Shown here piece after piece: positions 3,955 through 62,754 of a DNA stretch of 64,000 nucleotides. The notes under the pieces were generated by a model that was given only the letters and a program-made list of their open reading frames with translations, ran no database searches and had not been told where the DNA came from. The position numbers and the translations under genes are program-made. Source of the DNA: Saururus chinensis (taxonomy: Eukaryota; Streptophyta; Magnoliopsida; Piperales; Saururaceae); NCBI GenBank assembly GCA_035235625.1, contig CP141148.1, positions 28,459,057 through 28,523,056 on the forward strand, written 5' to 3'. Numbering within the stretch: the stretch's first letter is position 1; every line of letters begins with the position of its first letter.

Positions 3955-5504
3955 TATATTGCCATTCAATATGTAATCGTTGTATTGTATTTTACCGAAA
4001 AAAAAGGGTTATGTTGTAATATGTAGGCATATTACATTACAAAGGCCAAGATATGATTAGTTTAAAAATTGTAATCCTGATGAAATACCGTGTTGTAATC
4101 TTTATAGATTAGTCTGCTGCATAATCCCCACTTATGTATTGCCATTCAATGAGTCATGACTTTCAGTTTCAAGTGAAAGAAAAATTCAAAGCTCAACCAA
4201 CAGACCTGCATATAATTCATGTACCTAAAGAGAACGTTAGAAGTTCAAACCTATTCTTAGACGGTGGATCAAGGTTTATACTCGAAGTAGCATATAAAAG
4301 TAGCATATAAATCATCAACATAAAAGAAACTTCGAAGTTCAAACATCTAGAAAAACTCCAGCTAATAGAGAAATAAGACACAAAAAAAATTCAATTGTAC
4401 ACATTTTGAAGTCCTGAAAATAGCAAATACCCACATGCAGAAATTGTTCAACTAACAAAGTAAAAATCTTCAAAATGAATAGAAAAAATGAGACAAACCC
4501 CTAGCTGATGTAGTTTCGTATCAAACCTAGCATCCTGCTTTCTGAGCAAGGAGCACACTGGTAACATCTTCCATCTTCATATGACAGCTACCAATTGAGT
4601 TACTCACTGCTACAAACAACCAAGTTGTCCCAACCATATGGCAAACCTAACAACAAAGCTAAATCCCGAACATCCTCCGGAATCACCATCTAGACTTATT
4701 CCAACTGGTTTACAACTGCGTTGGAATTGTAAAAACGTTTGGCTACACGGACATCTTCAACCATTTGCAAATTAAAGAGCTTTTCACCAAATACACCTTG
4801 TTGAATGCTGAGGACTTCTATACATCTTTTCCAAGGCATCAAACATCCCCTTGTTCACTTGAATGCCTTCGGTTGAACGTTCGAGCTACTAGCTTTAGGA
4901 GTTAGCCCAAAGTTGATCCTCGCTGCCCAAAAATTTGCAGTACGCTCGGCCAACTCCCATCCTTGAGCATTCATTATGTTAATCAGACTCCGCAAACCCG
5001 ATAGAGCCTTCATAATCGGATGGAAAACTCCCATCCTTGAGCACATAGTACACATCATTTCTCTCTTTTTTGACAAGTGGAAATATTCCTAGCAGAATGC
5101 ATCTAGAGTTATGAGATGGGTCTCTATAATGCTCCTCCAATTACTTTGGTAGAAATAACTTTTGGTCCAATTTAATATTTTACTTGTAAAATTAAGATTT
5201 CATATAGAATTGACATTTGAGTACTATAGAGTCTATACATGTCGCATTGCCCTCACAAAACACCACCAATCCCACATTTTTCTATCCATCTCTTTGGTTC
5301 ATGAGATCTTGATGTCATGTGGGTGGTTGATGGAAAGGAGCTATTGCACTTGCAACCATTAAAAATAATGAAAAGAAGTTGTCACACTTCATAGAATAAG
5401 TGCTAAGTGTTTTGGATGACCATTGTCAATTTATACCATTAGCCTCTAGAGTAGAAAGTATGTCAATTAGATTGAATATTTGAAAACTAAATGGTACTAT
5501 TAAA
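3955..5504. other. 3' flank of copy 1 and intergenic DNA
   Basis: About 3955-4740 is homologous to the 3' flank of copy 2 (10382-11250), including the segment beginning ATGTAATCGTTGTATTG, so the tandem duplication covers promoter, gene and 3' flank. The 3' UTR and polyadenylation site should lie near 3960-4150, where TTGTATTG and AATGAG-type motifs occur. From about 4750 to 5504 I see no supported gene; the short minus-strand open frame at 4855-5076 has no recognisable domain. Confidence 0.5.
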
Positions 5505-9483: not shown

Positions 9484-10381
9484 ATGGATTCACTGGAGAT
9501 GCCTATTGTATTTGCTTCAGGTGCTAATGTTCTGGTTACAAGTTTCATTCTTGGTAGACAGCATTGCGCTGAGGCACAGGTGAATTTACTATATGCAAAT
9601 CTTTTCACGGGTCTTTTATCTAGACAATGGAAAACTAAATAACTTACCGAAAGATGAATTGGAAATCTTTGTGGCAACCCAAAAGAACCAAGAAGAGGAG
9701 CAGGAGAACGATCACGACATTGAGGCCGGATTGCCGGAAGGTGACATGGGCGGCGACGAGGGTGCACTGGATGAGCAAAGCCAAGCTCCCCTGCAACTTG
9801 CCCAGTCAATGAACAGGCAAGAAGAAACGACGAGTATAGAATCCCCTGTTGCAAGCCTAGAAACAGAGGTATGTTGAAAACAAGTGGATGAAGTTCTGTA
9901 CCATAAAATTTTCACTATATTGGCTAAAATGTTTTTTCTGTCACTTTTATGATAGAAGGAGCAAGAAGAAGAACCAATTAACGAAGTTGCACTCAGATTG
10001 GATGTTCAATTTCCTCCTGTGACTTTGCAGGAAACAGGATCTGAAGTGCATACTAAAGTTATGAAGTTTGGATCAGAGATTGGGATGTGGGCAACGGGAA
10101 TCTCTGTTACCGGAATTATAGCCTTATTAACTAGTGATAATCGTAATCAAAGAGCGAGCCTATATCATAGGCTTCTCCTAGTGGCTTCTACACTGGCAAT
10201 GCTTGCCTCTTTCATCTTGGGTGGAGTCCTACTGATTTTGGCATATTTTCATGTTGAAATCTTTCCTCCAAGTGATCCTAAATCAATTAGGAAAATCAAA
10301 ATTATAATTGGGGTTACAATCGGGTCTGTGGCTATAGTCGTGAGCTTTGTGACTGCCCTCATCCTCCAAAGGGCATATTAG
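9484..10381 (+). CDS. Uncharacterised three-exon membrane protein, copy 2
   Basis: Tandem paralogue of the gene at 3118-3954, with the same structure. Exon 1 (9484-9579) starts MDSLEMPIVFASGANVLVTS and ends CAG|GTGAAT. Exon 2 is the open segment ending at 9868 (GAG|GTATGT), 61 codons if it starts at 9686, with an acidic stretch containing EEEQENDHDIEAG. Exon 3 begins at 10031 after TGACTTTGCAG or, by an earlier acceptor near 9959, gains an in-frame segment EQEEEPINEVALRLDVQF. It then has three hydrophobic segments at about residues 15-33, 48-73 and 88-112 of the exon and ends LQRAY. Predicted length is about 209 residues, or about 233 with the longer exon. It keeps the TATA box and the extra acceptor that copy 1 lacks, so it is the better candidate for the expressed copy. 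Function is unknown. Confidence 0.6.
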
Positions 10382-11270
10382 TATACTCAAATACTGCTCT
10401 ATTACCATTCAATTTGTAATCGTTGTATTGTATTTTACAACGAAAAAAAAGGGTTATGTTGTAATGTGTGGGCGTATTACTTTACAAAGGCTAAGATATG
10501 ATTAGTTTAGCAGTTGTGATCCTGATAAAATACTGTGTTGTAATCTTTATAGATTAGTCTGTTGTATAATCCCCAATTATGTATTGTCATTCAATGAACA
10601 TGTCTTTAAGTTTCAATACCATTCCTGTGAAAGAAAAATTCAAAGTTCAACCAACAGACCTGCATACGATTCATGTACCTAAAGAGAAAGTTTAAAGTTC
10701 AAGCTTTTTCTTAGACGGTAGATCAAGGTTTATACTTGAAGTAGCATATAAATCATCAACATAAAAGAAACTTCGAAATCAAACATCTAGAAAAAACTCC
10801 AGCTAAAAGAGAAATAATACTTACAAAATTTTAATTATCCCTAAAATTATAAAGTAAATAGGACACAGAACAACACAGCTGTATACATTTTTAAGTCCTG
10901 AAAATAGCAAATACCCACATGCAGAAATTGCTTAACTAACAAAGTAAAATCTTCAAAATCAATAGGAGAACAAATGAGACAAATGAAGAGCAGAGTCCGG
11001 GATGGATAAAAATCATAAAATAGAAGAAAATGGGACAAAGATGGAGGTGGCTGCTGGCCTAGCTGATGTAGTTCTGAAGCAGACCTAGCATCGTGCTTTC
11101 TGAGCAAGGAGCACGCTGGTAACATCTTCCATCTTCATATGACAGCTACCAATCGAGTCCAAGTTGTTTCAACTATCTGGCAATTCTAACAACAGAGCTA
11201 AGCCCTGAACAGCCTCCGAAATCACCATCCCGACTTATTCCAACTAGTTTACAAGTGTGGTTGAATCCTT
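10382..11270 (+). other. 3' flank of membrane gene copy 2
   Basis: Homologous to about 3955-4740 downstream of copy 1, which marks the 3' end of the duplicated unit near 11250. The region is AT-rich and no protein-coding gene is supported. The minus-strand open frame at 10847-11125 lies in this repeated flank and has no recognisable domain. The right inverted-repeat arm starts immediately after it. Confidence 0.55.
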
Positions 11271-13390
11271 CACTTTGCCAATAAGGATTTGGGTCCGCGG
11301 TTTGCACATTTTGTCTTTGGGATGCAAGAACATCAATTTGCCAAAAGTGCACTTCCCTTCACTGCCCCCCTCCTTGCGTGTCTTTGCGATTGTTTGGTGG
11401 CAATTTCAAATCCTTCTATTTGCCTTCAGGGCCATTTTCCTTCCTGCTCTCTTGCAAAGTCAGATATAGGGATGCTACTGTGATTGGAATTGAAAGCTTA
11501 ACTTGACCTAACCCTGGGTCTAGAGTCGGGTTGTCGGGTGGGTCGCATGGAATTCAAGTTTAAACTCGCTCCAACCCAATTAACCCTTTTATTTTTCTTA
11601 GTCGGTGAAAGACAATTACTATATGAAAATTTTCCGTATGACCTGGTCTAAGATGCAAATATTTTATATTTCTTAGTTTTATAAAAAATATTCTATAGAA
11701 ACCTGGGTTTACAAGATATTTTAAAAAAATAGACCAAAATACCCTCGTAGCAAGGGTTAGGATTTAGAATCATATAAACCAATTGTGACGACCTACAAGC
11801 AAAGAGGAGATCGGAGCTTAGTGGTGATTTGCGATTTTTGACTAGCGATTCCCATCAACAATGAATTCCGATTCCTAGTGATTGCTGGCCTCCCTTCATT
11901 CATCGATGATCACTCTTCTTTGATTTTTGTTTAAAAAATTTTAACTACATAAACTACTTTTCCCTACAAAGGAGATCAGGATGGTACCTGCCACTCCGAA
12001 AATAAATATTGGGGGACTATCCAAGAAGAACATGGCTACACAAAATTGAAGAAGCATGTGGATGCCAAGAAAGGATACCGTAGAATAGCCATGATTGCTT
12101 TGTACCTTATTGTGCAAAGAGACTCTTGTATGGTTTTATGTATGCAAGTTTATTATGTAGAACATCTTATGTAAACATATACACAATCTTAGAGGCTTTC
12201 ATTACAACTTGATGAATACTAGTATCAATAGCAAATATTGGCAATTATTGTAAATATTATGTTTTTTAATACATAAAAAAAAATACATACGTGCTATCTT
12301 ATATACAATATGGAGCATATCATATTATCTACAACATGTACTGTTGACATGTCGTGTTATTATATATGCGATATGAAGCATATCATATTATGGGCTGATG
12401 GTTCAAAGAACACACATATAGTGTTATCGTTAATATTATATGGCAAATGTTGTGTTATCATATATGCGATATGGAACATATCTCTGACTCAATGGACACA
12501 TATCGTGTTATCGTTAACACGATATGTCAAATATCACATTATCATATATGTGATATGAAGCATATCATATTATGTTTTGTTGGCTCAAAATATACATATC
12601 ATGTTATCATTAATATGATAGGATATGATATGATATGATGAATATCGTGTTATTGTATATACGATATGGAGGATATCGTATTATGGGTTGTAGGCTCAAA
12701 GAACACATATCGTGTTATTGTTAACACAATATGGTGAATATCATGTTATTGTATATACAATATAGAGCATATCATATTATCAATAATGCATATTATTGGG
12801 TTGCATTATCGTATATGCGATATGAAACATATCGTATTATTAATAACATGTATTATTGACATGTAATGTTATCATTTATGTGATATCGCATTATGAGTAA
12901 TTAGTTCAAAGAACTCACATATCGTATTATGAGTCATTGGTTCAAAGAACCCACATATCATATTATCGTTAACAGTATGTGGTGAATATCATGTTTCGTA
13001 TATATGATATGAAGCATATCATATTATAATTCGCTGACTCAAGAAAACATATTGTGTTATCATTAACACGATATTGTATTATGAGTTGTTGGCTCAAAGA
13101 ATACATCGTGTTATCATTAGCATGATATGGTGAATATCGTGTTATTGTATATGCAATATGGAGCATATCGTATTATTAATAACATTTATTGTTGACATGT
13201 TGTCTTATCATATATGTAATATAAACCAAACCGTATTATGGGTCACTGGCACAAAGAGCACATCATGTTAGCATTAACATAATATGACACACATCATATA
13301 ATCAATAAAATGCATTATTGACAAATTATCATTGATGTAATATGAGTCACATCATATTATGAATCACTTTGTCCATTTTGTTGGAGGATG
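11271..13390 (-). repeat. Right arm of the large inverted repeat
   Basis: Reverse-complement partner of 1-2012. The inner end starts CTTTGCCAATAAGGATTTGG (partner at 1992-2012). Position 13317 aligns with the first base of the window, so any further left arm is outside view. The order of landmarks is the mirror image of the left arm. Open frames at 11257-11483 are the diverged partners of the minus-strand frame at 1774-2061 and are not called genes. Confidence 0.75.
12290..13375. repeat. AT-rich tandem array, mirror of 1-1025
   Basis: Same degenerate units as the left array in the opposite orientation, built on GATATG/CATATC and ATATCGTGTTA motifs with TGGCTCAAAGAACACATA-type spacers. Several short open frames arise from the repeat and are not genes. 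Confidence 0.75.
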
Positions 13391-24946: not shown

Positions 24947-25504
24947 TGTGGGGAATAAAACTACAGGCCTCGCCAAACAAAATATAAGTATATTATATTT
25001 TGGTTCTAGCCGAACAGAATATATATTTACTATTCTGAAGTTCTAGGCGAATAGAGTATAAATCTAATGTTTCCCTGCTTGTATTGCAGAATAATGGATC
25101 TAGAAATGCCAACAAAAAAGCAAAGTATATAAGAGAATTTAATGTGGTTTGACCTTGCTGCCTACGTCCACGGGATCACATAATTCCACTAGATAGAGAA
25201 TCAAAGTAAAAGAGAATTACAAGATTTCTCAGCAACACTCCTCACGCAATTCACAAGAAGAAAACTCCAACTTCTTCTTCCCAGAAACTTATGTTTTCCT
25301 TCTCTCTCTGTTGCTCTGCGTCAACCTCTCAGTTACGGGTCGTGACGGCTCTGAAATCTCTTCTCTAGAACTCTTCTCACGTTGGACTTTTCTCCACACA
25401 CCCGTCAGCCTCATTAATGAAACCTATTTATAACTTAGGTCTTAAGACCACAAAGACAGAATTGCCCTTCACTTAAGTTTCATAATTATGTTTCACCGTC
25501 AACA
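24947..25504 (-). repeat. LTR (3' side) of the 25-30 kb copia fossil
   Basis: 558 bp, reading TGTGGGGAATAAAACTA ... CACCGTCAACA on the plus strand. It is a direct repeat of 29573-30124 and adjoins the purine tract. Confidence 0.9.
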
Positions 25505-28500: not shown

Positions 28501-29572
28501 CTTTGTCAAATGAGGCACAAGACGAACATCTTTTAACTCAAACACAATACTATCATCAATCAACAAACAAATGTCACCTTTACCTATAATTTCACAAGCT
28601 TAGTCATTACCCAAATAGATATGACCCAAATCACTAGCCACAAAATTATGCATCAAGTCTTTTCTAGAAGTATCATGAAATGAGACACCACTATCAATAA
28701 TCAAAGCATCACATTTACTTTCCATAGACATGCAATCAGCTTCAACAACAATAACATTATTTTTTAACATGATTTTGTGCTCCATCATGAGGGGGGTTTG
28801 GGCAATCTTTCTTCAAGTGACCTTTCTGGCCACACTGCCAACAAGCCCCATCACCCTTATGGTTCTTAGACTTGGGCTGCCCCCTCCTAGACTTCCCTCT
28901 CCATCCTGGTTTGCCTCTTTGAGGTTGCCGCCCCCTTTCCTCCATAGTTACGACTGAACCGGATGAATAAGAACTACCCTTACAGCGTGTTTCTTCAACC
29001 ACTATTATTCCACAAACATCGTTCAACTTAAATTTATCTGTATTATGATAACTATGAATAACAACTTTAATTTAAATGATTCTCAATTAAACGGTAAAGA
29101 CTTAAGCAAAATAATAGACTGTATATCTTCTGTAAAATTAACATCTACTGCTTCAAGTTGATTCAACAAAGCATGGAATGAATTCAAATTATTGGCCACA
29201 GTCTCATCATCAGACATTTTCATATCAAAGAAACTAGTCACAAGATGTACCTTGTTTGTAGAAGGACTTGCATACAACCACTCAAGCAGATCAAAGCATT
29301 CCTTCATGGTCTTGGCCTTCGTGATGTTCAAAGCCACCAATGAAGAAATAGATAACCTAATTGCTCCTAGAGCCTTGCGATCAAGTAACTATCACCTTGC
29401 AATCTCTTCCACCTTGTCTTCACCAATAGGCTTGGTTGTAAACAACAGTTGATAAAGATCTTTTTGGTATAAGTAGTCTTCAATCTGCATACGCCAAAAT
29501 CTGTAATTTTTGCCACTGAACTTCTCTATCTCGAACTTGCCGGTCATCTCCTCCTGAAGCTCCGATACCAAT

Positions 29573-30124
29573 TGTGGGGAATAAAACTATAGGCCTCACC
29601 AAACAGAGTATAAGTTTACTGTACTCTGGTTCTAGCCGAACAGAGTATATATTTACTGTTCTAGAGTTCTGGGCGAACATAGTATAAATTAACTGTTCCC
29701 CCGCCAGTACTACAAAATAATGGATCTAAAAACGCAAAAAAAAACTACACAAGGGAATTTAACATGGTTCGGCCTTGCTGTCTATGTCCACATGATCACA
29801 CAATTCCACTAGATAGAGAATCAAAGTACAAGTGAATTACAAGATTTCTTAGCAACGCTGCTCATGCAATTCACAAGAAGAAAACTTCAACTTCTTTCTC
29901 CTAGAAATTTTTGTTTTCCTTCTCTTTGAGTTGCTCTGCGTCAACCTCTCGATTTCGGGTTGTGGCAGCTTTGAAATCTCTTCTCTAGAACTCTTCTCAC
30001 GTTGGACTGTTCTCCACACACCCATCAGCCTCTTTACTAAAACCTATTTATAACTTAGGTCTTAAGGCCACAAAGACAAAATTGCCCTTCACTTAAGTTC
30101 TATAATTATGTTTCACCTTCAACA
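29573..30124 (-). repeat. LTR (5' side) of the 25-30 kb copia fossil
   Basis: 552 bp, a direct repeat of 24947-25504. The primer-binding site lies just left of it at about 29558-29570. Confidence 0.9.
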
Positions 30125-31222: not shown

Positions 31223-31867
31223 TAGGGGTGTTCACGGACGTCCAATGCCCATTTGTCGATCTGTATCTGCGTCCAATAATACATAGAGCAGACAAATTTT
31301 TTAGTCCGGGGCGGACGTGGACGTGGACACGGACACGGACCATTAACTTTGTCCGTCCTTGTAGGTGCCTACGGACGCGGACAAACTGTTGTCCACGTCC
31401 GCCACTTGATTTGAAAATAATGTTCTTCTTTAGGCTTGGTAGTATTTTTATATGTATTTTTTAGGTAAAAATATAAATACAGACCTTATGTAGTATGTTA
31501 GGAGAGCTCTAACATGCTACATAGGGATTGTACATGTAAAAATATAAATACAGATCTTATGTAGCATGTTAAGACAGTTCTAACATGCTACATAAGGACT
31601 ATACATATAAAAATATAAATACAGACCTTATGTAGCATATTAAGATAGTTCTAACATGCTACATAAGGACTGTACATAAAAAAAAAGGAATTTGGCTTAA
31701 TTGTCCGCATCCGTCCGTGTTCGTCCATGTATGTGACGGACAGACTTGGACAATAAATATTACGGACATTAGTGAACATGGATGGACGCGAACAACACTT
31801 ATTGAATTAGCGAACAGACACAAACATACCTCTATCCGCGTTTCATATTTATCCGTGAACACCCCTA
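31223..31867. mobile_element. hAT-type MITE (645 bp) with 8-bp target duplication
   Basis: The ends TAGGGGTGTTCACGGA and TCCGTGAACACCCCTA are perfect inverted repeats of 16 bp, flanked on both sides by GTGATTAG (31215-31222 and 31868-31875), the 8-bp duplication expected for hAT. Subterminal zones carry repeated GGACG/TCCGT motifs. No transposase is encoded, so it needed a helper. Perfect ends and target site suggest a fairly recent insertion, about 250 bp upstream of the F-box gene. Confidence 0.9.
31467..31680. repeat. Three 71-bp tandem units, each a hairpin
   Basis: Units starting at about 31467, 31538 and 31609 each read AAAAATATAAATACAGA(C/T)CTTATGTAG and contain an inverted pair ATGTAGCATGTTA ... 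TAACATGCTACAT. They lie inside the hAT MITE. Confidence 0.8.
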
Positions 31868-38035: not shown

Positions 38036-38409
38036 AACGTGTTTATTTGTAACTCGAAAATCCTCTCAATACATTATAAATAACAAAATTTGGGGTATTT
38101 TCTTGTACCTCATCTACCCCACAAAAATTTTCATCTTATTACCTCAAATAAGCCTATAATAGAACAATGTCTCTCTTTCCATGCATCTCCAATCGCCACT
38201 TGCTTTCTTCCCTCCGTTCATGACGGCAAAGTTTCATAGAGTGGTATTTTTCTTCTCCTAATCTTATTAAAAAGGTGATATTTAACAAATTTGTAGAGGA
38301 TTTGTTAGAAGGAATATAGTGCAAACTCAAAAAAATGAGTGCCGCTTTAAAGATTTTTTACCCGATAAAATTAGGTGACTTTGAAGATTTTGACTGCATG
38401 TTGTTACAG
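38036..38409. other. Intergenic DNA, nothing identified
   Basis: AT-rich spacer without a supported feature. Confidence 0.4.
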
Positions 38410-38650
38410 GGTAGCAGAGCGGACTACCCGTGACACGTGCTGGGGCGCACACACATGAAAAAATGTTGTATACAAGGTGTGCATGCATTATGGGAATGTT
38501 ACGCAATGTTACGGGCCTTCCCCGCAATGCCTGCACACATGATATGCAACACTAAGGGCAGTTCCTATAATATATGCACACCTCGTATACAACACTTTCC
38601 TATGTGTATGCGCCCCAGCACGTGTTACGGGTAGTCCGCTCCACTATCGC
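38410..38650. mobile_element. Foldback MITE, about 240 bp
   Basis: Long inverted repeats cover almost the whole element. The left side reads AGCGGACTACCCGTGACACG, then TGCTGGGGCGCACACACATG and TGTTGTATACAAGGTGTGCA. The right side gives the same in reverse with a few changes. The central loop contains a GGAATGTTACGCAATG-type stretch. It would fold into one long hairpin. A target duplication was not identified, so the superfamily (perhaps Mutator-like) is open. Small frames at 38327-38634 are its two strands and not genes. Confidence 0.75.
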
Positions 38651-39069
38651 GTGACAATGCGCTCAAAAAACCTAAAAAACTTTGGAAGTTCTTGTAGGGA
38701 TTCTTTGTGTCATTAATTAGATATTTGCCTTCACCATTTTTCTCTTGTTGTTTGTGGGAAGTTCTTAGCTTAATAAAAATAGGTGAGGTCATAGCATTTG
38801 TTTTCTGGTTCTTAAGTTTGGTCACATTCTTGATCAAATGTTTATGCTCACAATGATTTTTTATGATATATAATAAGCTTTGTATATGTAATCTTAGAAA
38901 TCTTACTGAGTACCGAGGTCCTTCAATTCTTGATTTACAATTTTACCTCATAAAGCATATGTGGAACATCGGGAGATGCTTCAGTATCATAGACATGGTA
39001 ATTTCCATGATAGAACTTATGAAATGATGCTTACAATGAGCACCTCTCAACAAAGTATAAATTTCTATA
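38651..39069. other. Intergenic DNA, nothing identified
   Basis: AT-rich spacer leading into the tandem array. The array's flanking motif (ATGGTAATTTCCATGA) appears from about 38995. No gene is seen. Confidence 0.4.
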
Positions 39070-41256: not shown

Positions 41257-41748
41257 GGTGGACCCCGCACTTGGCTGGGTCCGGGGAGGAGCTGACTACA
41301 CTGATGGCGGGTGGGGGCCACCTACGGAGGCATGTGGCAGCGGAGAGGTGGGGAGAGCAAGAAGTAGACGCCAGAGGGCAGCCACAGGAGGGAGGTCAGG
41401 GAGAGAGAAATAGAGGTACATACGACATGCAAGTAATCATAATTCATAGTTAAGGGGCTTCTCATCCCAAAATTAGAGTAAGCCGTTGGATTAAAATTCA
41501 AAGGTAATTATAGAATTTGGCTCATTGATCCTTTTTTAGCCTGGTTTCATATAAATGGGATTATATATTTCTCTCTCTATATATAGAAGTGATGGTTGAA
41601 ACATCCTTTTCTAAGGAGATATCTTAAACCGGAAATCCCCCAAAATTTTGCCTTAATCATGTAAATATGGCTTGCAAATTCATGAAAAATGATTTTGGAA
41701 TATAACCACTAAGACGGTTAATTTTGTATCCCAAGAGAATGCTTTTGA
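41257..41748. other. Leader-like GC-rich stretch, then AT-rich spacer
   Basis: Sequence 41257-41420 is GC-rich; after it the DNA is AT-rich up to the copia LTR. CTTTTG at 41742-41747 is repeated right of the copia fossil and may be its target duplication. Confidence 0.4.
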
Positions 41749-42704
41749 TGAGTGGTGTACTAGCGAAAGTATATGGTGGGAAAAGCTCAAAGGTTTGTGC
41801 CTTTAATAAAAATTATAACTTTATAATAATTTCTTTACGCAATTATATAAACAAAGACATTCATAAGCAATAAACACATGCATAAGTCTGTTGATCAATT
41901 AGAATGAAATAATGGAGTGATAAAAACTGACTTTGGGGCTGATAAGCCCCTTGATGCTTTACTCCTTCACTCTAACGCCCGATTTAACAATTAGACATCG
42001 ATTCAATTAAGATAGAAAGGGGGATATCTTTAACTATGTGTAGAACACTTAAAATCCACTTGATGGAGTGCCCTAGCCCTTGCCTTGAAGCCTCACAATT
42101 CCCAAGAGGGGTTTCCTCCTTTGTGCACCACGCAAGAGGTCGAAGGGAGGGAGAGAGGGGCGGCCACCCCTCTTTTCCCTTGTCTTTTGAGCAACATGCC
42201 AAGAGGATGAGGAGGCATGATTGGGAGAGAGAGGAGAGGAGAGGGGGTCTTGGTTAGGGCTTTCTTCTCTCTTAACAAGTATTTATACTCCCTCATTTGA
42301 CTTACCTTACACGGGCTTTCTTAATAGGCCTCTAATCTAAAGTCCACGGGATTAACTTATAGGGTCTAACACAACAAAAGTGGGCTATGAGTCTCTATGC
42401 CCATAGAGGCCTGTTCCCTATACACTGCCAAGGCCGCGATAGGGTCAACACCTCGCTAACCACGGGTCCGGCCAACGACACTATTTCTTGCATCGGGCCC
42501 CACATAGTGAATAAGCGTATCCTAGTTGCATGCCTAGTGTGCGTGAGTGATGAATGTGGGTCCTAATAGAATATGTATCATGACGGTTTATGTGGGGTTG
42601 GTGTGACCGCCCCCACTGTCCTTAGACCCCGTAGCCTGTATCAGCTCACCCAAACCGCGAACAAAGTGGACCAAATGGGCTTGAGCCCATACCATGGTCC
42701 AACA
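41749..42704 (-). repeat. LTR (3' side) of the nested copia fossil
   Basis: 956 bp on the plus strand from TGAGTGGTGTACTAGCG to ATGGTCCAACA. It is a direct repeat of 62010-62754 but carries about 210 bp more, at about 42310-42540. Small frames within (41984-42296) recur in the other LTR (62297-62599) and are not genes. Confidence 0.9.
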
Positions 42705-44656
42705 TCCCCCACTATGGGTGAATGACTCATATGGTCCAACAATGACTTGCGCCAGTTCTATCTAAGACCAATGCTATGAGCATGTTGAAAAAATAGATAT
42801 GTCGTTAAGGCTTTGGTAAACGGATCCGCCAACATCCCAGTAGTAGGAATATGACTCACAACCACTTTTTTTCTCTGTAGCATGTCAAATATATAGTAGT
42901 AATGCACTTCAATGTGCTTACTCTAGCACTGATCTCCCTATTTTTGAGTGTCGATACAATCGTTAGATTAATCCAATGAATATGGACAAAAGCATTAATC
43001 CAGTTTTCTAGTCCCAATTTAGCTAGAAATTCTTTTATCCATACTACTTGGGAAGCTACTATCATATATGCATAAAACTTAGCTTCCATCGTAGACTTAG
43101 AAACACTTTTTTGTTTCTTTCTTTCCCACGATATAGCCCTACTGCCAAACATGAAGACAAATTCGACAGTGGAATTTCTTGTCATCTAGATCCCCCATAT
43201 AATCTGAATCACTATGTCTAGTTAATGACTGTCATGCCCGGGGTTTTCAAAATAATTTTTATAAAATTTAAATAAAAATTCCGCAATATAACGGCTGTAA
43301 ATTGGTGAAGATTGACGAAAATACGAAACCTGTAAAAAACATTTTTTATAATTCTCATTCATTTGTATCAAATCCATCTCAACACTTTCTTTTCAATTCA
43401 AAATAGAGATATAACAACAATAAAACATTCAAAGCTCGTAGTTCATTCATCCCCCGGCGTGAATAACGAACAAAAGACAAAATTTGCCATGGCCATGGGT
43501 TTTCAATATATTTTCCCAGGCGTAGCTGGGTACAAGTTCCATAACAATCGAAAGTAATAATACAGTCCATGTACAAGTCCAAAATAATACATGTAAAAGC
43601 ACTCACCTCACTTAATACATGTACTTCAAAATTTATTTGCAACAGATCGTGGCATAAATTAATCAAGGAATAATAGAGTCAAAAATCAACCCGCAATCCA
43701 AAAAGTGTATCCTCAAATGCTACGCAGCTCTCGAACTAGGCCCCACAGAAGTCCCTGGAGTGCCTGAGGATTAGAGAAAAAGAACATGAGTACTTTCATA
43801 CCCAGTAGGAGAATCAAAATCAGTGAACCATAAAAGTTCACACCAAAGCTGCTCTACAAGACAGTAGCAAACCAAGAACCAGGCGAATATAAATACAATC
43901 TCAATCAGAGTACTACAATTCCTCTGAGCTTTCTAAACTTACAATTTTTTTTTCACCTTACGTATAACAAAACACAACCTACCAAACTCTCATTTTCACA
44001 TACATACTACTTACACTTACAATCTTACGTTTATTATCTTACACTTACACTCGACGAATAGAACTAATTAAATCTCAATTAGCTCTACTGTCGAAAGGAA
44101 AGAATGCCACTAGGGTGTCACCTTGACCTTTGGGGTGAAACCTACGCGTTAAAAAGATTCCGAAGGCAAAGTACACTGGTGCTCATGGGGCACAGGATCA
44201 AACAGGTAAGAGTAGATCCATGATACTACTTACCTCAGCACGCAAATGCCCACTCTCTGGGGCCATACAGGGCCAGCAAGGGCCTAAAAATGCCAATTAA
44301 GGCAAGAAAACTTACAAAGCCACTCTTGGGCAGAAAACTTACAATGCCACTCTTGGGCAGAAAACTACGATGCCACTCTTGGGCGCACAACTCACAGTGC
44401 TCTCAACAGAGCATAAAAAATCCTAACTTACACAAACATTACCTCCAAGGTATGAACTACGTTAATCTTATAGGTGAAACTGACCGCCCGTCAGTTGTCA
44501 ACCAAATGGAATTTAATCCGTCAATCTAGCTAAGAACTCACTCTTATTATCAACTGCATACTTTAATTATGCTAAAGTTTATAGTTTATACGTTATGCAA
44601 GTACCAATATGATTGTACCTTTACTTGTAGCTTATATCTAAGCTTCTAACCAATTT

Positions 44657-45493
44657 TATTTAGCAATCTTTGCATGTTCATCCACTAGAAAAATTCACAG
44701 GGAGTTTGCCCAGCGACCATTCCGCCTTGCTAGCGGCTAGAGACCACGTCCATGACAATGCTTTACCCACACTATTGGACTGACCTAAGTTTTTTTTTGG
44801 GGCGTGCAGGCATCTAAATCACCGGTAAGGGTGTTGTGAGAGACGTTCTTAACTGCGGGCGTTAATTGGAGACCTGCACTGCAGTTTCCACCCCAAAGCC
44901 ATCTCTTGTAGTGTAAGGGTGCGTGGGCTGCTGGGTACACACCAACGCAGCCTTCGTGGTACGCCCTGACATCAATTTTGGCCCAGCCGGCAAGGTAGGA
45001 GACTTTGAACCTTAGAAATTCACTCTAGCGTGTTTTTCTGATAGGATGCATGCTAGGACTAAGTGTTTAATTGCATGATGTTTAGATGGATATTAATGCG
45101 GAGGATGTTAAGTGCAGAGATTAATTTTAATGGCCATATGGGTATATTTTAAAATTATCTGTGTATTAATTAGTTGATTAGTCGTACATTCACATATGAC
45201 TTATTCTTGCTTTGGATAGATGGATGAGTAGAAGACCTGTGTAATTAATTATATTTCTTGCTAAATGCATGAGTGGTCGTTATGCTTATGTAAGAATTAT
45301 GTTTTCATGCTATAAAGGCTGTAAAGCATGTTGTAAGATGTATGTGTGGTGTATAATTCAAAACTATGAGTTGTTTATACATGTGCAGATGATGTATGTA
45401 TGCTTGATAAGTGACGATCAGTTTCGACTGATTCGAATTTCTGAAAAGTGAGGCAGAGACTTCAAGGTTTAGTAAATAGGCAAATTAGGGTTC
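44657..45493. other. Spacer between the inverted arms
   Basis: About 840 bp with a GC-richer part (44700-45010) and an AT-rich part. It is not repeated elsewhere in the window. A 60-codon frame at 45269-45451 is cysteine-containing but has no recognisable domain. Confidence 0.5.
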
Positions 45494-45763
45494 GAAGCTT
45501 AGATATAAGCTACAAGTAAAGGTACAATCATATTGGTACCTGCATAACATATAAACTATAAACTTCAGCATAATTAAAGTATGTAGTTGGTAATAAGAGT
45601 GAATTCTTAGCTAGATTGACGGATTAAATTCCATTTGGTTGACGACTGACGGGCAGTTAGTTTCACCGATAAGATTAACGTAGTTCATACCTTGGAGGTA
45701 ATGTTTGTATAAGTTAGGATTTTTGATGCTCTGTTGAGAGCATCGTGAGTTGTGCGCCCAAGA

Positions 45764-45870
45764 GTGGCATCGTAAGTTTTCTGCCCAAGAGTGACATTGT
45801 AAGTTTTTTGCCCAAGAGTGGCATTGTAAGTTTTCTGCCCAAGAGTGGCTTTGTAAGTTTTCCTGCCTTA
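45764..45870. repeat. Short tandem repeat of ~30 bp in the inverted arm
   Basis: Four units of GTAAGTTTTCTGCCCAAGAG with the following TGGCATT; the mirrored units are at 44300-44395. The same CCACTCTTGGGC motif repeats at 58462-58560 in the related LTR-like block, which supports their relationship. Confidence 0.8.
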
Positions 45871-48800
45871 ATTGGCATTTTTAGGCCCTTGTTGGCCCTG
45901 TCTGGCCCCAGAGAGTGGGCATTTGCGCACTCAGGTAAGTAGTATCATGGATCTACTCTTACCTGTTTAATCCTGTGCCCCATAAGCACCGGTGTACTTT
46001 GCCTTCAGAATCTTTTTAACGCGTAGGTTTCACCCCGAAGGTCAAGGTGACGCCCTAGTGGCATTCTTTCCTTTCGACAGTAGAGCTAATTGAGATTTAA
46101 TTAGTTCTATTCGTTGAGTGTAAGTGTAAGATAATAAATGTAAGACAGTAAGTGTCAGTAGTATGTATGTGAAAATGAAAGTTTGATTGGTTGTGTTTTG
46201 TTATACGTAAGGTGAAAAGAAAATTTTGTAAGTTTAGAAAGCACAGAGGAATTGTAGTACTCTGATTGAGATTGTATTTATCTTCGCCTGGTTCTTGGTT
46301 TGCTACTGTCTTGCAGAGCAGCTTTGGTGTGAACTTTTATGGTTCACTGATTTTGATTCTCCTACTGGGAATGAAAATACTCATGTTCTTTTTCTCTAAT
46401 CCTCAGGCACTCCAGGAACTTCTGTGGGGCCTAGTTCGAGAGCTGCGTAGCATTTGAGGATACACTTTTTGGATTGCAGGTCAATTTTTGACTCTATTGT
46501 TCCTTAATTAATTTATGCCACGATATGTTGTAAATAAATTTTGATGTACATGTATTAAGTGAGGTGAGCGCTTTTACATGTATTATTTTGGACTTGTACA
46601 TGAACTGTATTATTACTTTTGACTGTTATGGAACTTGTACCCAGCTACGCCTGGGAAAATACATTGAAAGCCCATGGCCATGGAAAATTTTGTCTTTTGT
46701 TCGTTATTCACGCCGGGGGATGAATGAACTACGAGCTTTGAATGTTTTATCGTTGTTATATCTCTGTTTTGAATTGAAAAGAAAGTGTTGAGATGGATTT
46801 GATACAAATGAATGAGAATTATGAAAAATGTTTTTTACAGGTTTCATATTTTCGTCAATTTTCACCAATTTACAGCCGTTATATTGCAGAATTTTTATTT
46901 AAATTTTATAAAAATTATTTTAAAAACCCCGGGCGTGACAATGACAAACTTTCTCCCTGATAGGTGAAATCTAGATTCATAGATCCTAGAAGGTATCAGA
47001 ATACCCTTTTCACTACTTGCTAGTGTTGAAGTCTAGCATTTGCTTGGTAGTAGCTCAACAAGCCTACCACAAAACTCAAGTCAGGTTTAGTATAAATTAT
47101 GTCATACACCAAGCTGCCAATAGCTTGTAAATATGGCACTGACTCCTTCTAGATTCTATCTCCTCTGTCCGAGGAGCCATACTCTTAGATAACACAGTAC
47201 CCTTGTGTATAGGGGATTCAATATTTTTCCAACACATGATATTGAAGCGTTTGTGAACACTCACTATGTATGACTCTTGAGATATACTTAGCTTCTTAGC
47301 CTTTCTATCCCTATCAATTTCTATCCCAATGATGTAGGATTTCTCACCCATGTCCTTCATCTCAAACTGGGTTTTAAGTCATTTCTTTAAACTGATTATC
47401 ATACCTAAGTCATTCCCCATCAAGAGTATGTCATCTATATAGAATGACAACATCATATACATAGTCTCATCGTAGAGGGTATAAACACAATGATCATGAT
47501 CATTAACTATGAACCCATATTCATTAATCACCTTGTGAAAAGTGAAGTACCATTACCTTGTAAATTGTTTATGGCCGTACAATGATTTTATTAGCTTGCA
47601 CACCTTGTGTTCCTCTCTAGGAACTACAAAACCCTTAAGTTGTCCCATGTAAATCTCTATTTAGGAAGATAGTCCATACATCCATATGGAATAACTCTAA
47701 ATCAAAGTAAGCAACATTTGCTAAGAGACATCTAATTGAGTTAAATCTTGACACAGGTGAGTATCTCTCCTTAAAGTCTATCCCATACACTTAGGTGAAC
47801 CCTTTTACCACTAATATCGCTTGTACTTGTCTATTGATTCATCTGCCTTTAAACTTCTTTTTGAAGATCCATTTACACCCTATGGGCTTCCACCCTTTTT
47901 GTAGATCAACTATCTCCTAAACCTTGTTCTTTAGGATTGAATCCATTTCCTCTTGAATAACATTGTGTCATTCTTGAGCATCTGGAAGACTTAAAGCTTG
48001 CTCAAGGATAATTTGTCATCTAGAATAGGTTAATCTAATGTAACATTGTCTTCCTCTAGCATTGCATAGAAATCTCTCAACTGTGTTGAAGGTCTTCTTT
48101 CCCTCAATGCCCTTAGTTCTTGTTGGTTTGATTTTACATGATTTAATTACTTCCTCAAGGGTAGTACTAGGACCAATCTCTTTTACTATCTCGAATAAAT
48201 CTACTCTTTTATTTGATATGTTGGGATTTAATTCTTCTTCTAAGAAATAAGTATATCTAGACACTATAACCCCCATTGTCTCATCGTGTAATAAACCACA
48301 AATTTGTACCCCTTAGAGTGATCACAGTAATTAATAAAGTAGCATTTTATGGTCTTAGGGTCCAGCTTAGACCTATGTTGGTCAGACACCTTTACATGTG
48401 CCCTGGACCTCCATACTCTAAGATGTCCTAAGCTTGGGCATCCACCCATCCAAAGCTAATAAAGTGTCCATTAGACTACCTTTGTGGGTACATGATTAAG
48501 GATGTACACGATAGTGTTTAAAGCCTCATCCCAGAAATTGGTTCCTAATTCAGAGTGATTTAATATGAATTTGACAATATCTATAAGCGTCCTATTACAC
48601 CTTTCTACCACTCTATTTTGTTGTGGAGTGTAAGGGAGTATGTATTGATGCACTTAGGGCTAGTCGTCTGCCAAATAGTCGGTGGACAAGCCTTGTCCAT
48701 GTCTGTGTCCATTAACAATTTATCCGCCGGCCATTTGTCCACGAATGTAGCCTTTTATATGATGGACATGGCCATTGTCCATAGACATAGCCTCTTGTCC

Positions 48801-57230: not shown

Positions 57231-60200
57231 TGTAACGCTTGCGGTTTTTCATCACATTTTCTCAAATTTTACGAAAAGTTTTTACAATATAACAGTTGTA
57301 AATTAGGAAGAATGATAAAATACAAAACCTGTGAAAACAATTAATAGTTTGAAACATCACACATTAATTTCCCCATCTAAAATTTTTCTCATTCGATTAA
57401 ACATCGTATAGCTAAACCAAACAACCTCAGGTGCTACTCGAAAACAAATATACGAATAAATTACCATGATCATGGGTTTTAAATACAAATCTATCCCAGG
57501 CATCTCTAAGTGCAAGTCCCATAAACAGCCCACAGTCTAATCCAAATTATAAGTCCAGACAACATAAACACCTTAAATTTCATCTCACTCAATACATTAG
57601 ATTGTGACACAAAAATAATACTCATAGTAAGTCAAGGATATACCCGAGTCAAAGAGAATCAAACCACCACATAAATTAGCATCCATCTCTAGGAGCTACC
57701 CAACACAAACCTATAAAATCCACTCAACCATCGGGGCTAAAAAATAGGGTAAATGAGTATTTTCATACTTAGTAGGAAAATACCCAATAGGGGAGTTCTA
57801 AACAGTAAACTCAGTAAGTCCATACATAGATACGTTCAGGCAACTCAAACATGAAGCAGGCGGGCATATAATAATGATGCACATAAGCATACAATTATGC
57901 CAAATACATACCATCAAATCAATCTTACACTCATAATCAGAGTCTTACCAACTTACTCGTACAATTATATGTTTACTCATGCAACTTACACATACTTGTA
58001 TGACCTTACTCATATAATCTTACACATCCTCGTATGACCTTACTCATCTAGTCTTACTCGTACGATCTTACTCATACAATCTTGCTAAAAAACATACGCC
58101 TACAGTCTTGTTTAGAATAATACTCTTATAGTCTTGCTTAGAATCAAACTCTTATAGTCTTACTCAGAAATATATATACTCACTCATACAGTCATACACA
58201 TACTATCGACCACTGAAGCTCATTACAATTAATAATCTCCAGTGTCAAAATGGAAAGGAATACTACTAGGGCATCACCTTAACTTCTAGGGAGTGACTAG
58301 ATGTCATGGACTTTTCCAAGGCAAGGCACACCAATGCTCATAGGGCACAGGATCAAATAGGTAAGAGCAGTTCCATAATACTACTTATCTAAGTGTGCAA
58401 ACAAAAACAACCACACATTAGGACCATACAATTGCCCACACTTTAGGGGTCTTATAGTGCTAATGCCACTCTTGTGTATAATAATACAGTGCCGCTCTTG
58501 GACGAAATCATACAGCACCACTCTTGGACATAAATCATACAGTGCCACTCTTGGGCAAAATCATACAACACTCTCAATAGAGCATCAAACATTTAGGCTT
58601 AATACAGCACACAGGCCGTATCAAAAATATACATCGCTCTTAATAGGGCATTAGACATCTGGGCTTAAATACTACACACAAACAACATCCCACAGGATAA
58701 ACACCATGACAAGACATGAGAAATGCTTAGCCAACTCATTATCGGCTAGCCCAAACACAGAACTTAATCTGTCGAACCCTCAGGTCTCAAATTCACAACC
58801 CTATCATTAGTTTTTCTTATAATTCAAGTTTGAATTAAGTTATGCGGTACAATGATGCCATAAACATACAATGCTCCACTGATCAAACAAAGTTAAGCCT
58901 GATCCAAAACCCTAACTCATCAGGGCAGCAGACTCCACTTAACCCATCCATCTCATGATCATAACTCACCATACATCAAATCCTTGCATATTCATACAAT
59001 CTCCGCCATCTAACTTATAGCCCACACATCTAAAGTCATCAAACTGAGCTCCTCAGAGCCAACCCCAGTTATCACACTCTTGCTTATACCTCACTTATTA
59101 TGTTTACTTTTCACTTTATATATGCAACACTTTTAGTGTATGACAATCCCCCAACATACGCTCCAATTCAAACCCATCCAATCCTCCCCTATCAAACTTA
59201 CATCCTCCATTTTTCGCATACACTTACACATCCACATCCAACTCCATACCAAACCCTCTGTCACCTCTCACCATCCATTGCCTATACTTCTGCACACACC
59301 CATACATACACATATCCATCACGCATGCTCATAGACATCATACACATGTATGTCCATCACATATACTTTCATACACACAATTCTATACATAGCTACCAAC
59401 ATACTCTCTAGCCATTACTAGCACACGCACAATCCACATACATAGCTTACCAACATACTCGCTAACCATCACTAGTACACATATACTTCAAACATACCTA
59501 CAGCTCACATGTATACATAGCTACCAACATACTCTCTAGCCATCACTAGCACACGCACAATCCACATACATAGCTTACCAACATACTCGCTAACCATCAC
59601 TAGTACACATATACTTCAAACATACTTACAGCTCACATGCATATCATATGCATGTCAACATAGCATAATTTATCCTCTTACATCATGCAAGCAGATTATG
59701 ATTTAACATCCAAAGCATTGAATCATACAATCCTAGTATCCTGCTACACATTCAAAACATGTCAGCATGAAATTATGAGTTCAAAGCTCCCCTACCTCGT
59801 AATCTATGATGTTTGACGATGAGCACACGACCGTAGTGGCATCGATGGTAGAGTTGGCAGCAAAAAGCATTGCCAAGTTGAGAGAGCTGTTGTCCCGAGG
59901 GTTTAGGAAGTACCAGAAGCAATCACGGCCAAATGTAGTGACACATATCAAGGCGACAAAATCTGGGATCCACGACGGCACACTAGGGTGGCCAGGAGAA
60001 AAGACGTGCCAAAAGAAGTGGCAAGTATGACCGAAGTCTAGGTGTACTCATTGAAGGTTGGCCGATGGCTGAGAAGTACTCGGCCACCTGTAAGACATCA
60101 AAATCGGCTATGGAAAGCACCCATTGACGTTGATTTTGCATCTACAAGGGCCCACATAAAGATGAAGGGCATGCGGTGACGCTCAAGGACTAAGGACAGG

Positions 60201-61875
60201 TGGAGGAGGGCTCTGGTGGTCAACTCAAATGGTAACAGAGCCAGTCGATGGTTAGGCTGCACAAATGCGTTACCTAAACCCTAAAATGCATGTGTGGCCA
60301 CATGCACATGTGACGAAAGGGGAGGGGGAGAGGGCTGGATGGAGACGGCCCAAGGATCAGATGGGTCTATAGGGCCATGGCCAAGGCTGGCTAAAAATAT
60401 CTCATGGGATTAGCAGACTAGTCCTCCTTTGACTGGTTCACGCTACACACACTAGGAAATAGGCAGGGGGAAAGCGGCCCATTTTGGGCAGGGGCCAAGA
60501 TGAGGGCCAGACAAGGTCAGTGGGTCTAAGTCAGAGGAGCCATGTCATCATCACCGGTCCAAGGCGGAGTCAAATGGCCTACGATAGTTTTTGGCAGCTC
60601 ATCGGAGAATCAAAACATAGTGGGGGAAAATGCTCGGTTTTTGCGGATGAGCACATCAACCGGGTAGCGGGGGAGGAGTGGCATGCAAGGGTGGAACAAC
60701 AGGCCGGGTAGGGAAGGTCGTAGCCTTGGCCAGCTCCTCCATGGCCGTGGCGGCTAGGTGGAGCTGTCCTCGGCCTAAGACGGTAGCTTCCGGCGCCATC
60801 AGTCCCAAATGGAGAAATCCGAATAAAACCTGCAAATAGAGGGGCAAAACGATCTAGGCAGAGTAGAGGAGGGACAAAGTGGCCGAACAGGCCATGACGG
60901 AGACCATCTTTGTCTTTGCTTGGCCATGGAGGGATGGATGGAGTCCAGCCAGGTTGTCTGTTAGCGGCTAACGGTAGCCAGTGAACTCAGACAAAGGGGG
61001 TGGAAACAAGGGAGATGAGGGAAAGGCAGACTTGGAATAGAGCGGGGAGACCAGAAGAGGTGGAGCCAGGCTATGTGGAACTAGCCCTGGCCTTCGCCAG
61101 GTAGGGGCGGAGGCCATGAGGACCAACGGGCCACTATCGACTAGCATTGGCCGTCATTGTTTAATCAAAACAGCCAGGAGGGAAAACAGGGCAGCAGATG
61201 GGAGGAAATGAGTAGGGCGGTGGAGAGGCTAGTGCAGGTGGAGCCAAGCCAGTTGCGGACGGTCCTCACCATCACCAAGCTAGGGTGGAGACCAAGGTTG
61301 TGGTACGGCTACTGCCATCCGTGGCAGTGGTCCTAAATCAAAACAGAGAGGGAAAGGGGCTAGCTGGGGCTAATCCAAAAAAGATGGTGTAGAGGGCGGA
61401 GCGGCCATGGGGTATGGGGCGGTGGCCCCTTGTTGTCACATCATCGAGGCAGAGCCGGCGGCCCTGGCCCACCGACAGTTGGGGAAAAAGAAGCCAAAAG
61501 GGGGGTGCATTGTTCAGTTCATTATGGAATAGGCTCGAATGAGCCCAATCCATCCTTTTTTTCTCTTCTCTTTCTTTATGTTTTCTTTCTTTTCACTCAA
61601 AATCGTACTTTTTTGTGATGAAAGCGCGTGTGAAGGCCCATGGCCTATGGCTAAATCTCATACCTGACTCTATGGGTATAAATATCAAGGTCAAATATGT
61701 TAAAGCATCATATTTTTCCCGCCACAAATGATAAAAAAATAGTAAGAAAATCACAGAAAATTATAAAAAAATCAGAAACATTACATAGATTATCAAAAAT
61801 AAAAGTTCCAGCAAGGTAATGATATGAATTAGTACATTAAACACTTAATTTCACTCTAATCACAAAGCCCTATCA
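57231..61875. mobile_element. 4.6 kb solo-LTR-like block in the copia leader
   Basis: From TGTAACGCTTGCGG to AAGCCCTATCA, flanked on both sides by TAGAT (57226-57230 and 61876-61880), a 5-bp target duplication. The first 1.4 kb matches the arms of the 43230-46940 element at a lower level (about 70% by eye), including AGTATTTTCATACTTAGTAG, GCTCATAGGGCACAGGATCA and repeated CCACTCTTGG motifs. The part at 59790-61560 is GC-rich, with short frames on both strands that have no domain. The end (61720-61830) has CATATTTTTCCCGCC and a run of AAAAT(C/T)A motifs, as in long plant Ty3-type LTRs. It is placed between gag and the primer-binding site of the copia fossil. Confidence 0.65.
59384..59639. repeat. 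128-bp tandem duplication
   Basis: Two consecutive copies start TATACATAGCTACCAACATA at 59384 and 59512 and are almost identical (a few differences). This is a much younger event than the surrounding LTR-like block. Confidence 0.9.
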
Positions 61876-62009
61876 TAGATAACGCATAGAGAAGTAATTT
61901 AGGGTTTTCCCCAATTTTGCACACACAAACCCTAAATCGGGTAAAACAAATCACATTTTTTTATTAAATCAACCACCAATACCCCCTAATTGGGCTCCGA
62001 TACCACTGA

Positions 62010-62754
62010 TGAGTGGCATACCAGCAGAAGCACATGGTTGGTAGAACCCAAGGGGTGGTGCCTTTAAGAAAAATCGCAACTTTATAATAATTTCTCTACA
62101 CAATCACATGAACAAAGGCATTCATAAGCAATTAACACATGCATAAGTCTATTGATCAATTAGAATGAAATAAGGGAGTGATACAAACTGATCTTTGGGG
62201 CTGATCAGCTCCCGGATGCTTTACTCCTTCACTGCAACACCCGATTTAACAATTGAACACCGATTCAATTAAGATAGAAAGAGGAATACATTTACCATGT
62301 GGAGAACCCCAAAAATCCTTACTTTGGATTATAAAATCCACTTGATGGAATGCCCTAACCCTTATCTTGAAGCCTCACAATTCCCAAGTGGTGTTTCCTC
62401 CTTTTTGCACCACACAAGAGGGAGAAGGGAGGGAGAGAGAGGAGCGACCAGCCCCTCTTTTCCCTTGTCTTTTGGGCAACACACCAAGAGGGAGAGGGGG
62501 CGTGATTGGGAGAGAGGAGAGGACGGGCGGCCTTGGTTAGGGATTTCTTCTCTCTTAACAAGTATTTATACTCCCTCATTAGACTTACCCAATAACTAGT
62601 GTGTGACGAATATTGATCCTAATAAAATATGTGTAACGATAGTTCATGTGGGATCAGCGCGACCACTCTAGTGTCCTTTGACCCTATGGCTTGTACCAAC
62701 TCACCCAAATCACAAATAAAGTGGACCAAATGGGCCTGAGCCCATGGTCCAACA
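62010..62754 (-). repeat. LTR (5' side) of the nested copia fossil
   Basis: 745 bp on the plus strand from TGAGTGGCATACCAGC to ATGGTCCAACA; direct repeat of 41749-42704. The primer-binding site is at about 61993-62005. CTTTTG follows one base after its end, matching CTTTTG left of the other LTR. Confidence 0.9.

Follow-up and report, generated by a model that had tools for sequence, protein, structure and literature searches.

Architecture of the insertion and its target site

The window analyzed here is a stretch of 64,000 nucleotides from Saururus chinensis (contig CP141148.1 of assembly GCA_035235625.1, positions 28,459,057 to 28,523,056 of the forward strand). It contains an insertion of 3711 bp, located inside a degraded Ty1/copia element (Table 1). 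The 3'-terminal 2289 bp of an LTR, on the plus strand, abut at 44651|44652 the 3'-terminal 1422 bp of an LTR in minus-strand orientation, and the same LTR end is outermost on both sides. The insertion starts with TGTCATGCCC... and finishes with ...GGGCGTGACA. A complete solo LTR is bounded by the LTR 5' end on one side and by the U5 end on the other; here both outer ends were U5 ends. Relative to the 18 copies of the family that we measured, the right unit was found without 917 to 1382 bp of the LTR 5' part (L023 and L026 were omitted from this length measurement and from the motif count given below). The spacer, which the sequence-only reading had proposed to compare with LTR interiors, is instead a continuation of the same LTR over a further 837 bp.

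Table 1. Features of the insertion and of its surroundings (positions within the window).
Feature	Position	Strand	Remarks
Host, degraded Ty1/copia element	41746–62589 (inferred extent)	−	LTR-like repeats enclose the insertion
Left target-site duplication ATGAC	43225–43229		present once in all 8 host paralogues fetched
Left arm	43230–44651	−	3'-terminal 1422 bp of the LTR, inverted, ends at U5; outer end TGTCA
27-bp tandem repeats in left arm	44281–44400	−	
Junction of the two LTR pieces	44651–44652		no second occurrence among the matches listed
Right unit	44652–46940	+	3'-terminal 2289 bp of the LTR, sense; outer end TGACA, the U5 end
Unpaired spacer	44652–45488	+	LTR sequence occurring once
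Possible priming/annealing site TAAATAGGCAAATT	45473–45486	+	pairs with TAAATAAAATT, 3-nt bulge
Right arm	45489–46940	+	complementary to the left arm
27-bp tandem repeats in right arm	45741–45875	+	
Right target-site duplication ATGAC	46941–46945		5-bp duplication

The near-palindromic arrangement that had been described from the sequence alone was confirmed by alignment. With BLAST, 43230-44662 and 46940-45473 were 93.1% identical, gaps counted. With MAFFT, 1356 of the 1422 aligned bases were identical between the oppositely oriented arms, the left one having also gaps of 2 and 28 nt (a 16-nt terminal gap in this alignment falls outside the arm). The 28-nt gap has about the length of one of the 27-bp tandem units. 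A divergence of about 5% between the arms, their unequal lengths and their dissimilar flanks led us to reject a palindrome generated by the assembly.

The TGTCA/TGACA ends with ATGAC on both sides, already recognized in the sequence-only reading, are present as reported. To evaluate them we relied on the empty sites. The joined flanks matched at least 39 other places (best 40 of 754 candidates scored), eight of which were fetched. In all eight the copia sequence was uninterrupted at the site, with one motif each (ATGAC in four, ATGAT in three and ATGGC in one), indicating that all 3711 bp were inserted together, as a single unit. Besides, the flanks rejoin at the site and, apart from the 5 bp, no base was lost or gained. 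The flanking ATGAC is therefore no coincidence and the arms have no independent insertion boundaries, the two outcomes that would have spoken against the original proposal of an LTR-derived, inverted structure inserted by an integrase-type reaction. The host itself is recognizable by two LTR-like repeats (41746-42306 and 62007-62589, 83% identical), by a primer-binding-site-like sequence at 61994-62005 and by an RVT_2 match in the right flank that stays under Pfam's cut-off; no Pfam family was found in the left-flank piece.

The source LTR family and the kinship of the arms

Judging from domain models and general knowledge of the class, the LTR, about 3.4 kb long, belongs to a retrotransposon family of Ty3/gypsy type. 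In the genome we counted at least 312 U5 ends, on both strands, allowing up to 3 mismatches. The normal copies ran from LTR end to LTR end with TG...CA termini and an exact 5-bp duplication in 18 of the 20 fetched; of the remaining two, L014 had one mismatch in the duplication and L023 adjoins internal sequence. Ten open pieces of the L023 interior gave RT_RNaseH (9e-14) and SH3_Tf2-1 (2.1e-23), both above the cut-off, and rve and H2C2 integrase pieces below it, with a MULE piece mixed in. The full element measures roughly 11.8 kb, estimated as the 8330 bp between two same-strand U5 ends plus one LTR; in the copy that provided this distance (L049), no outer LTR end was found within the fetched piece.

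The polarity of the LTR could be established from its neighbors. A polypurine tract is seen where AAGGGGGGAAGAA adjoins TGTAATAACC, and a similar tract is found in a second copy, so that the tract precedes the 3' LTR in two copies. In this second copy the TGACA end of the 5' LTR is followed by AAT and TGGTATCAGAGCC, a tRNA primer-binding site; the primer-binding sequence TGGTATCAGAGC presumably corresponds to the initiator-Met tRNA. Tract and primer-binding site together place the repeated part at the 3' (U5) side of the LTR, and the earlier assignment of the arms to its 5' part has to be reversed. The block at 57231, which had been taken as their counterpart, is not the source either. It is a distant relative, 60-69% identical over separate segments of 57231-59797, while LTR copies elsewhere in the genome are much closer, with up to 95% identity. 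Given its distance, the argument that the arms resemble each other more than this block says little.

The same reading had deduced a more recent origin for the inversion than for the family. In the best trees the arms were indeed sisters, with a support of 0.972 in FastTree (19 other copies, without L023) and a UFBoot value of 96 (29 other copies, L023 included and L030 represented only by 754-1422). Against this, the AU test rejected only two of eight alternative placements of the arms and six survived. The raw distance from the left arm to L015 was 0.0453 and to the right arm 0.0464. Minority states in common with other copies and not with the opposite arm numbered 16 for the left and 14 for the right, and seven were found only in the two arms. 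An inversion more recent than the family is favored by the trees, although unproven.

The junction and the origin of the insertion

We searched for the junction elsewhere in the genome. Among the best 40 of 233 candidates scored, only the window matched the query (1-181) over its whole length, and the other 39 were one-sided, some restricted to the left part, with ends at 84-103, and the others to the right part (93-181). A search allowing 3 mismatches found no other copy broken at the same point; its single match was the window, where all three were already spent, so that diverged same-point copies would be missed. In the same way, no outward-facing pair of U5 ends less than 25 kb apart was found besides the present one among 135 distinct ends listed of the at least 312, a comparison that covers less than half of the ends and could miss rare or older inverted copies. 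Within the reach of these searches, the question of many copies or one is answered in favor of an aberrant integration.

Strict homology at the junction is scarce. The two halves may have met by pairing, and we examined the complementarity of TAAATAAAATT, the minus-strand end complementary to 44652-44662, with the candidate priming site. The scoring was devised post hoc, after the junction was seen, and its values have to be read accordingly. The gapped score was 8.6, equalled by 1 of 4000 and by 2 of 6000 random site pairs. When one base was replaced by that of the majority of copies the score fell to 6.1 (35 of 6000 pairs), and the plain exact match, 5 nt long before the replacement (22 of 6000), shrank to 3 nt (282 of 6000); the base responsible for the higher score may have arisen by later mutation. 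For the AT-rich strand end held fixed, scores of at least 8.6 were reached at 7 of 2148 sites and of at least 6.1 at 40. A better pairing site for the same strand end lies near 46541. Two nucleotides (45487-45488) are skipped in the product, and an ideal primed product would contain them.

We also considered a full strong-stop cDNA that stopped at a TATA-defined transcript start. In the 18 copies there was no TATA motif about 30 bp upstream of the equivalent of 44652, and this version is therefore unsupported. Relative to the junction point, TATAAA-type motifs appeared at +1007 to +1014 in 11 of the 18 copies and at +2112 to +2261 in all of them.

What was inserted was very probably a DNA with two U5 ends, by an integrase-type reaction. 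As a whole, we read the locus as a single aberrant integration of mutually primed minus-strand cDNAs of a Ty3/gypsy-type element, at a probability of about 0.55. Two incomplete minus strands of the same or of a near-identical RNA, reaching 2289 nt and about 1.42 kb inward from U5, would have paired through a short region of complementarity close to their 3' ends. Their extension would yield a duplex bounded by U5 on both outer sides, which integrase would then insert into the copia element with the usual 5-bp duplication. Integrase takes either LTR terminus, and a U5-U5 molecule should therefore be insertable. By analogy with the retroviral scheme, a minus strand of 1.4-2.3 kb inside an LTR of about 3.4 kb would be short of the polypurine tract; mutual extension or folding back could supply the second strand at U5 without the primer generated there. 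If one molecule folded back on itself, the hairpin would need to open before integration, which counts against that variant. That the strands were minus-strand cDNAs, joined before integration and by priming, is what we infer; for the priming route itself the odds appear evenly balanced.

The halves could also have been joined afterwards. In this version a particle would contain two separate cDNAs, and integrase would insert both at the same target in a concerted reaction, each through its U5 end; the inner ends, still free, would then be trimmed and ligated by the end-joining machinery of the host. Two U5 ends, one target duplication and unequal arms would result as well, and the short complementarity fits microhomology-mediated joining too. 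But random breakpoints along the 11.8-kb element would both fall within its last 3.4 kb in only about 8% of cases by our own estimate, and we regard this explanation as rather unlikely. Two independent insertions in opposite orientation at or near one site, fused by a deletion, would account for the scarce junction homology, as expected of an end-joining deletion. They would however require the same 5-bp target twice with no outside base lost or gained, which the empty sites make very improbable, and arms that are close relatives by chance. Equally hard to credit is a normal insertion later modified by inversion or gene conversion against an oppositely oriented LTR. Partners are abundant on both strands, but the right outer end would have to switch from LTR 5' to U5 exactly at the old target duplication. 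A transmissible foldback-type element built of LTR parts, the alternative offered in the sequence-only reading, would explain long inverted arms with a spacer, but it is the least credible of all, since normal LTRs of the family exist and neither the junction nor the outward-facing U5 pair was found a second time in the searches described above. The locus looks like one old event.

Significance and comparison with known systems

The clean duplication and the readable empty site suggest that the integrase of a plant-type LTR retrotransposon is able to insert a DNA whose two termini are the same. Aberrant cDNA products of such kind are known mainly as unintegrated or in-vitro DNA, and the insertion seems to be a record, a fossil copy, of one of them. 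Repeat annotation would probably score it as two broken LTRs, and outward-facing U5 ends within a few kb provide a simple signature to count such events in other genomes. More speculatively, and with low odds in our opinion, incomplete minus strands that prime each other into integrase-ready U5-U5 DNA could be a side path of retrotransposition. If so, both the polypurine-tract primer and the completed strand transfer would be dispensable, and the resulting insertions would be natural hairpin loci that could yield double-stranded LTR RNA and help to silence their own family.

A term search of open-licence PMC, which is no proof of absence in print, gave no published example of a U5-U5 insertion among the papers listed. 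In one matching paper the term referred to RNA packaging, and PMC5445492 had no bearing on the subject.

The closest normal counterparts are the solo LTRs of the same Ty3/gypsy family, which have in common with the insertion the LTR, the U5 terminus and the 5-bp target duplication. They carry one U3 and one U5 end, whereas the insertion has two U5 ends, is devoid of the LTR 5' part and has its second piece inverted. Self-priming of minus strong-stop cDNA has been reported for HIV-1 (PMC4668388), and likewise yields inverted U5-side copies. That product is described there among aberrant cDNA species, whereas the present one appears integrated, and a transcript start at its strand end would be hypothetical, with no TATA motif at the right distance in the 18 copies. 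DIRS-type retrotransposons also have inverted terminal sequences; however, DIRS-1 relies on a tyrosine recombinase and contains an internal complementary region (PMC5633606), while here we find an integrase-type duplication and no coding interior. Finally, Mu killer of maize, which arose as an inverted duplication of MuDR (PMC3440606), is another inverted transposon derivative with potential hairpin RNA. It originates from a DNA transposon and silencing has been reported for it, whereas the insertion of S. chinensis derives from an LTR.

Structure and polarity of the inverted unit

We have analyzed the region 43230-46940, in which two inverted arms enclose an 837-bp spacer, within a genome of 516 Mb in 11 contigs whose repeats look plant-like. 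The arms were identical at 1356 of 1422 aligned positions with MAFFT, the left one carrying two gaps (2 nt and 28 nt) with respect to the right; in an alignment including other copies the arms differed at 65 positions out of 1422, through transitions in 51 cases and transversions in 14. Both pieces derive from LTRs of one Ty3/gypsy-type family, and the first 917-1382 bp of the LTR are absent from the unit (compared with 18 measured copies, the atypical L023 and L026 excluded), and the motif ATGAC is found on either side.

Components of the inverted unit and of the element around it
Feature	Window positions	Strand
Left piece (left arm), final 1422 bp of LTR	43230-44651	-
Right unit, final 2289 bp of LTR	44652-46940	+
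Spacer (within right unit)	44652-45488	
Right arm (within right unit)	45489-46940	+
Surrounding element, LTR-like repeats	41746-42306 and 62007-62589	
Surrounding element, primer-binding-site-like sequence	61994-62005	

No match to the whole unit was found elsewhere among the best 40 of 4840 candidates; other copies matched the window unbroken solely over the right unit, or over the left arm alone. Twenty copies of the family (L009-L028) were fetched. They extend from TGTCA to TTATTACA or TTATTATA and mostly measure 3.2-3.6 kb (L026, with additional sequence inside, reaches 5277 bp). Both LTR ends and an exact 5-bp duplication were present in 18; in L014 the duplication has one mismatch, and in L023 the U5 side is rearranged and adjoins internal sequence. 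Their end-to-end extent and the 5-bp duplications indicate that the fetched copies are mostly solo LTRs, a share that describes the best matches to the window and not a random sample.

The polarity of the LTR could be established from two copies. In L023, read in sense, the sequence outside the LTR is GGGGGGAAGAA, a polypurine tract, followed by TGTAATAACC, and interior pieces gave matches to the RT_RNaseH model and to that of the Tf2-1-type integrase SH3. The second copy has two same-strand U5 ends 8330 bp apart and a polypurine tract of like kind; past its TGACA come AAT and a primer-binding site, TGGTATCAGAGCC. Within the 701 bp taken at the second LTR of this copy, no outer LTR end could be located. 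From the tract and the primer-binding site, the LTR reads TGTAATAACC...GTGACA and, judged by these motifs, TGACA is its 3' (U5) end. The sequence-only reading had taken the arms for the inverted 5' part of the LTR, which this polarity contradicts. Since both outer termini are U5 ends, the unit can be classed neither as a solo LTR nor as a normal element; its components are ordinary and their arrangement is unusual.

Besides, L023 contains a MULE transposase domain (positions 2019-2609, E 4.1e-10) inside the sequence beside the gypsy LTR, which points to a DNA transposon nested there. Other repeats are present in the window. A diverged relative of the LTR family (60-69% alike, in pieces) lies at 57231-59797, and TGGTAACAGAGC, similar to a primer-binding site, at 60230-60241 (+). 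Direct repeats at 24947-25504 and 29573-30124 (86% alike, ends TGTGGGG...CAACA), with a primer-binding-site-like sequence at 29559-29570 (-), are probably the LTRs of another minus-strand element. Inverted repeats of ~2 kb (2-2012 and 11269-13312, 84% alike) enclose direct repeats (3055-4727 and 9424-11266), and 38388-38668 and 31478-31674 each align to their reverse complement (73-74% alike).

Insertion site and search for further events

The flanks of the unit appear to be part of a degraded copia element with LTR-like repeats 83% alike. The right flank gave a weak RVT_2 match, under Pfam's cut-off, and the left-flank piece matched no Pfam family. Joined with a single ATGAC, the flanks match 39 other places (best 40 of 754 candidates). 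In all eight of the paralogues fetched among them the sequence is uninterrupted at the site, with one ATGAC (4), ATGAT (3) or ATGGC (1). Therefore the 3711 bp came as one unit, the 5-bp duplication accompanied its arrival and no target was lost at the site, confirming the single insertion with target duplication proposed from the sequence.

A 181-bp query across the junction 44651|44652 matched completely at the window only, the remaining 39 of the best 40 (of 233 candidates) covering its left part (ending at 84-103) or its right part (93-181). The right-unit pattern with non-LTR sequence upstream was found at one place, the window, at a 3-mismatch limit that gives this search a short reach. 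The U5-end pattern occurs at 155 and 157 places, and 135 distinct ends of at least 312 were listed (100 from the first pattern, the rest via four more). Among these 135, the only outward-facing pair less than 25 kb apart is that of the unit itself. The search for further inverted copies envisaged earlier gave none besides this unit among the candidates and ends that these searches covered; other such events are possible elsewhere in the genome, because over half of the U5 ends fall outside the 135 listed.

Kinship and age of the arms

The arms were sisters with FastTree (support 0.972, 19 other copies) and with IQ-TREE (UFBoot 96, 29 other copies). Seven states were common to the two arms alone, private states numbered 13 (left) and 21 (right), and minority states that one arm had in common with other copies, without its partner, were 16 and 14. 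In the AU test six of eight alternative placements passed and two were rejected. Raw distances from the left arm were 0.0453 to L015, another copy, and about the same, 0.0464, to the right arm. The likeness of the arms could also come from later gene conversion between them. Given arms identical at insertion, 4.6% divergence corresponds to roughly 1.8 million years at 1.3e-8 substitutions per site and year, a rate that methylation may raise.

Possible formation of the unit and related systems

Integrase attaches two DNA termini to target DNA cut with a 5-bp stagger. The simplest source of a DNA with U5 at both termini would be two incomplete minus strands joined into a dimer, both of them started from the tRNA primer at the U5 end. 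Annealed via their 3' ends and extended on each other, they would give a double-stranded linear DNA, U5-ended on either side, for integrase to insert. A one-strand version, by fold-back, would produce the same sequence but as a closed hairpin needing to be opened. At the junction, the right unit's minus strand would terminate in TAAATAAAATT, and the sense strand directly ahead of the left-arm copy start reads TAAATAGGCAAATT, AG and GGTT in order; 11 bases are able to pair, with a 3-nt bulge, and two bases are skipped. In a test designed after the fact, the pairing score was attained by one random pair out of 4000 and, in a second set, by two out of 6000; with the majority-copy base in place it drops to a level attained by 35 of 6000. 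With the strand end fixed, 7 of 2148 sites scored equally well, and a better site exists near 46541. This complementarity counts as support, not as proof. The main rival is that two cDNAs were inserted concertedly by their U5 ends and their inner ends joined afterwards; the evidence decisively favours neither.

No TATA motif placed to make 44652 a transcript start was found in 18 copies, so that a strong-stop end is not claimed. In HIV-1, self-priming of minus strong-stop cDNA has been reported (PMC4668388). A term search of open-licence papers, which is weak evidence, found no described plant case of such an insertion among the papers listed. Mu killer offers a comparison for an inverted transposon-derived locus (PMC3440606) and, by analogy, the inverted LTR locus could act in the same way.
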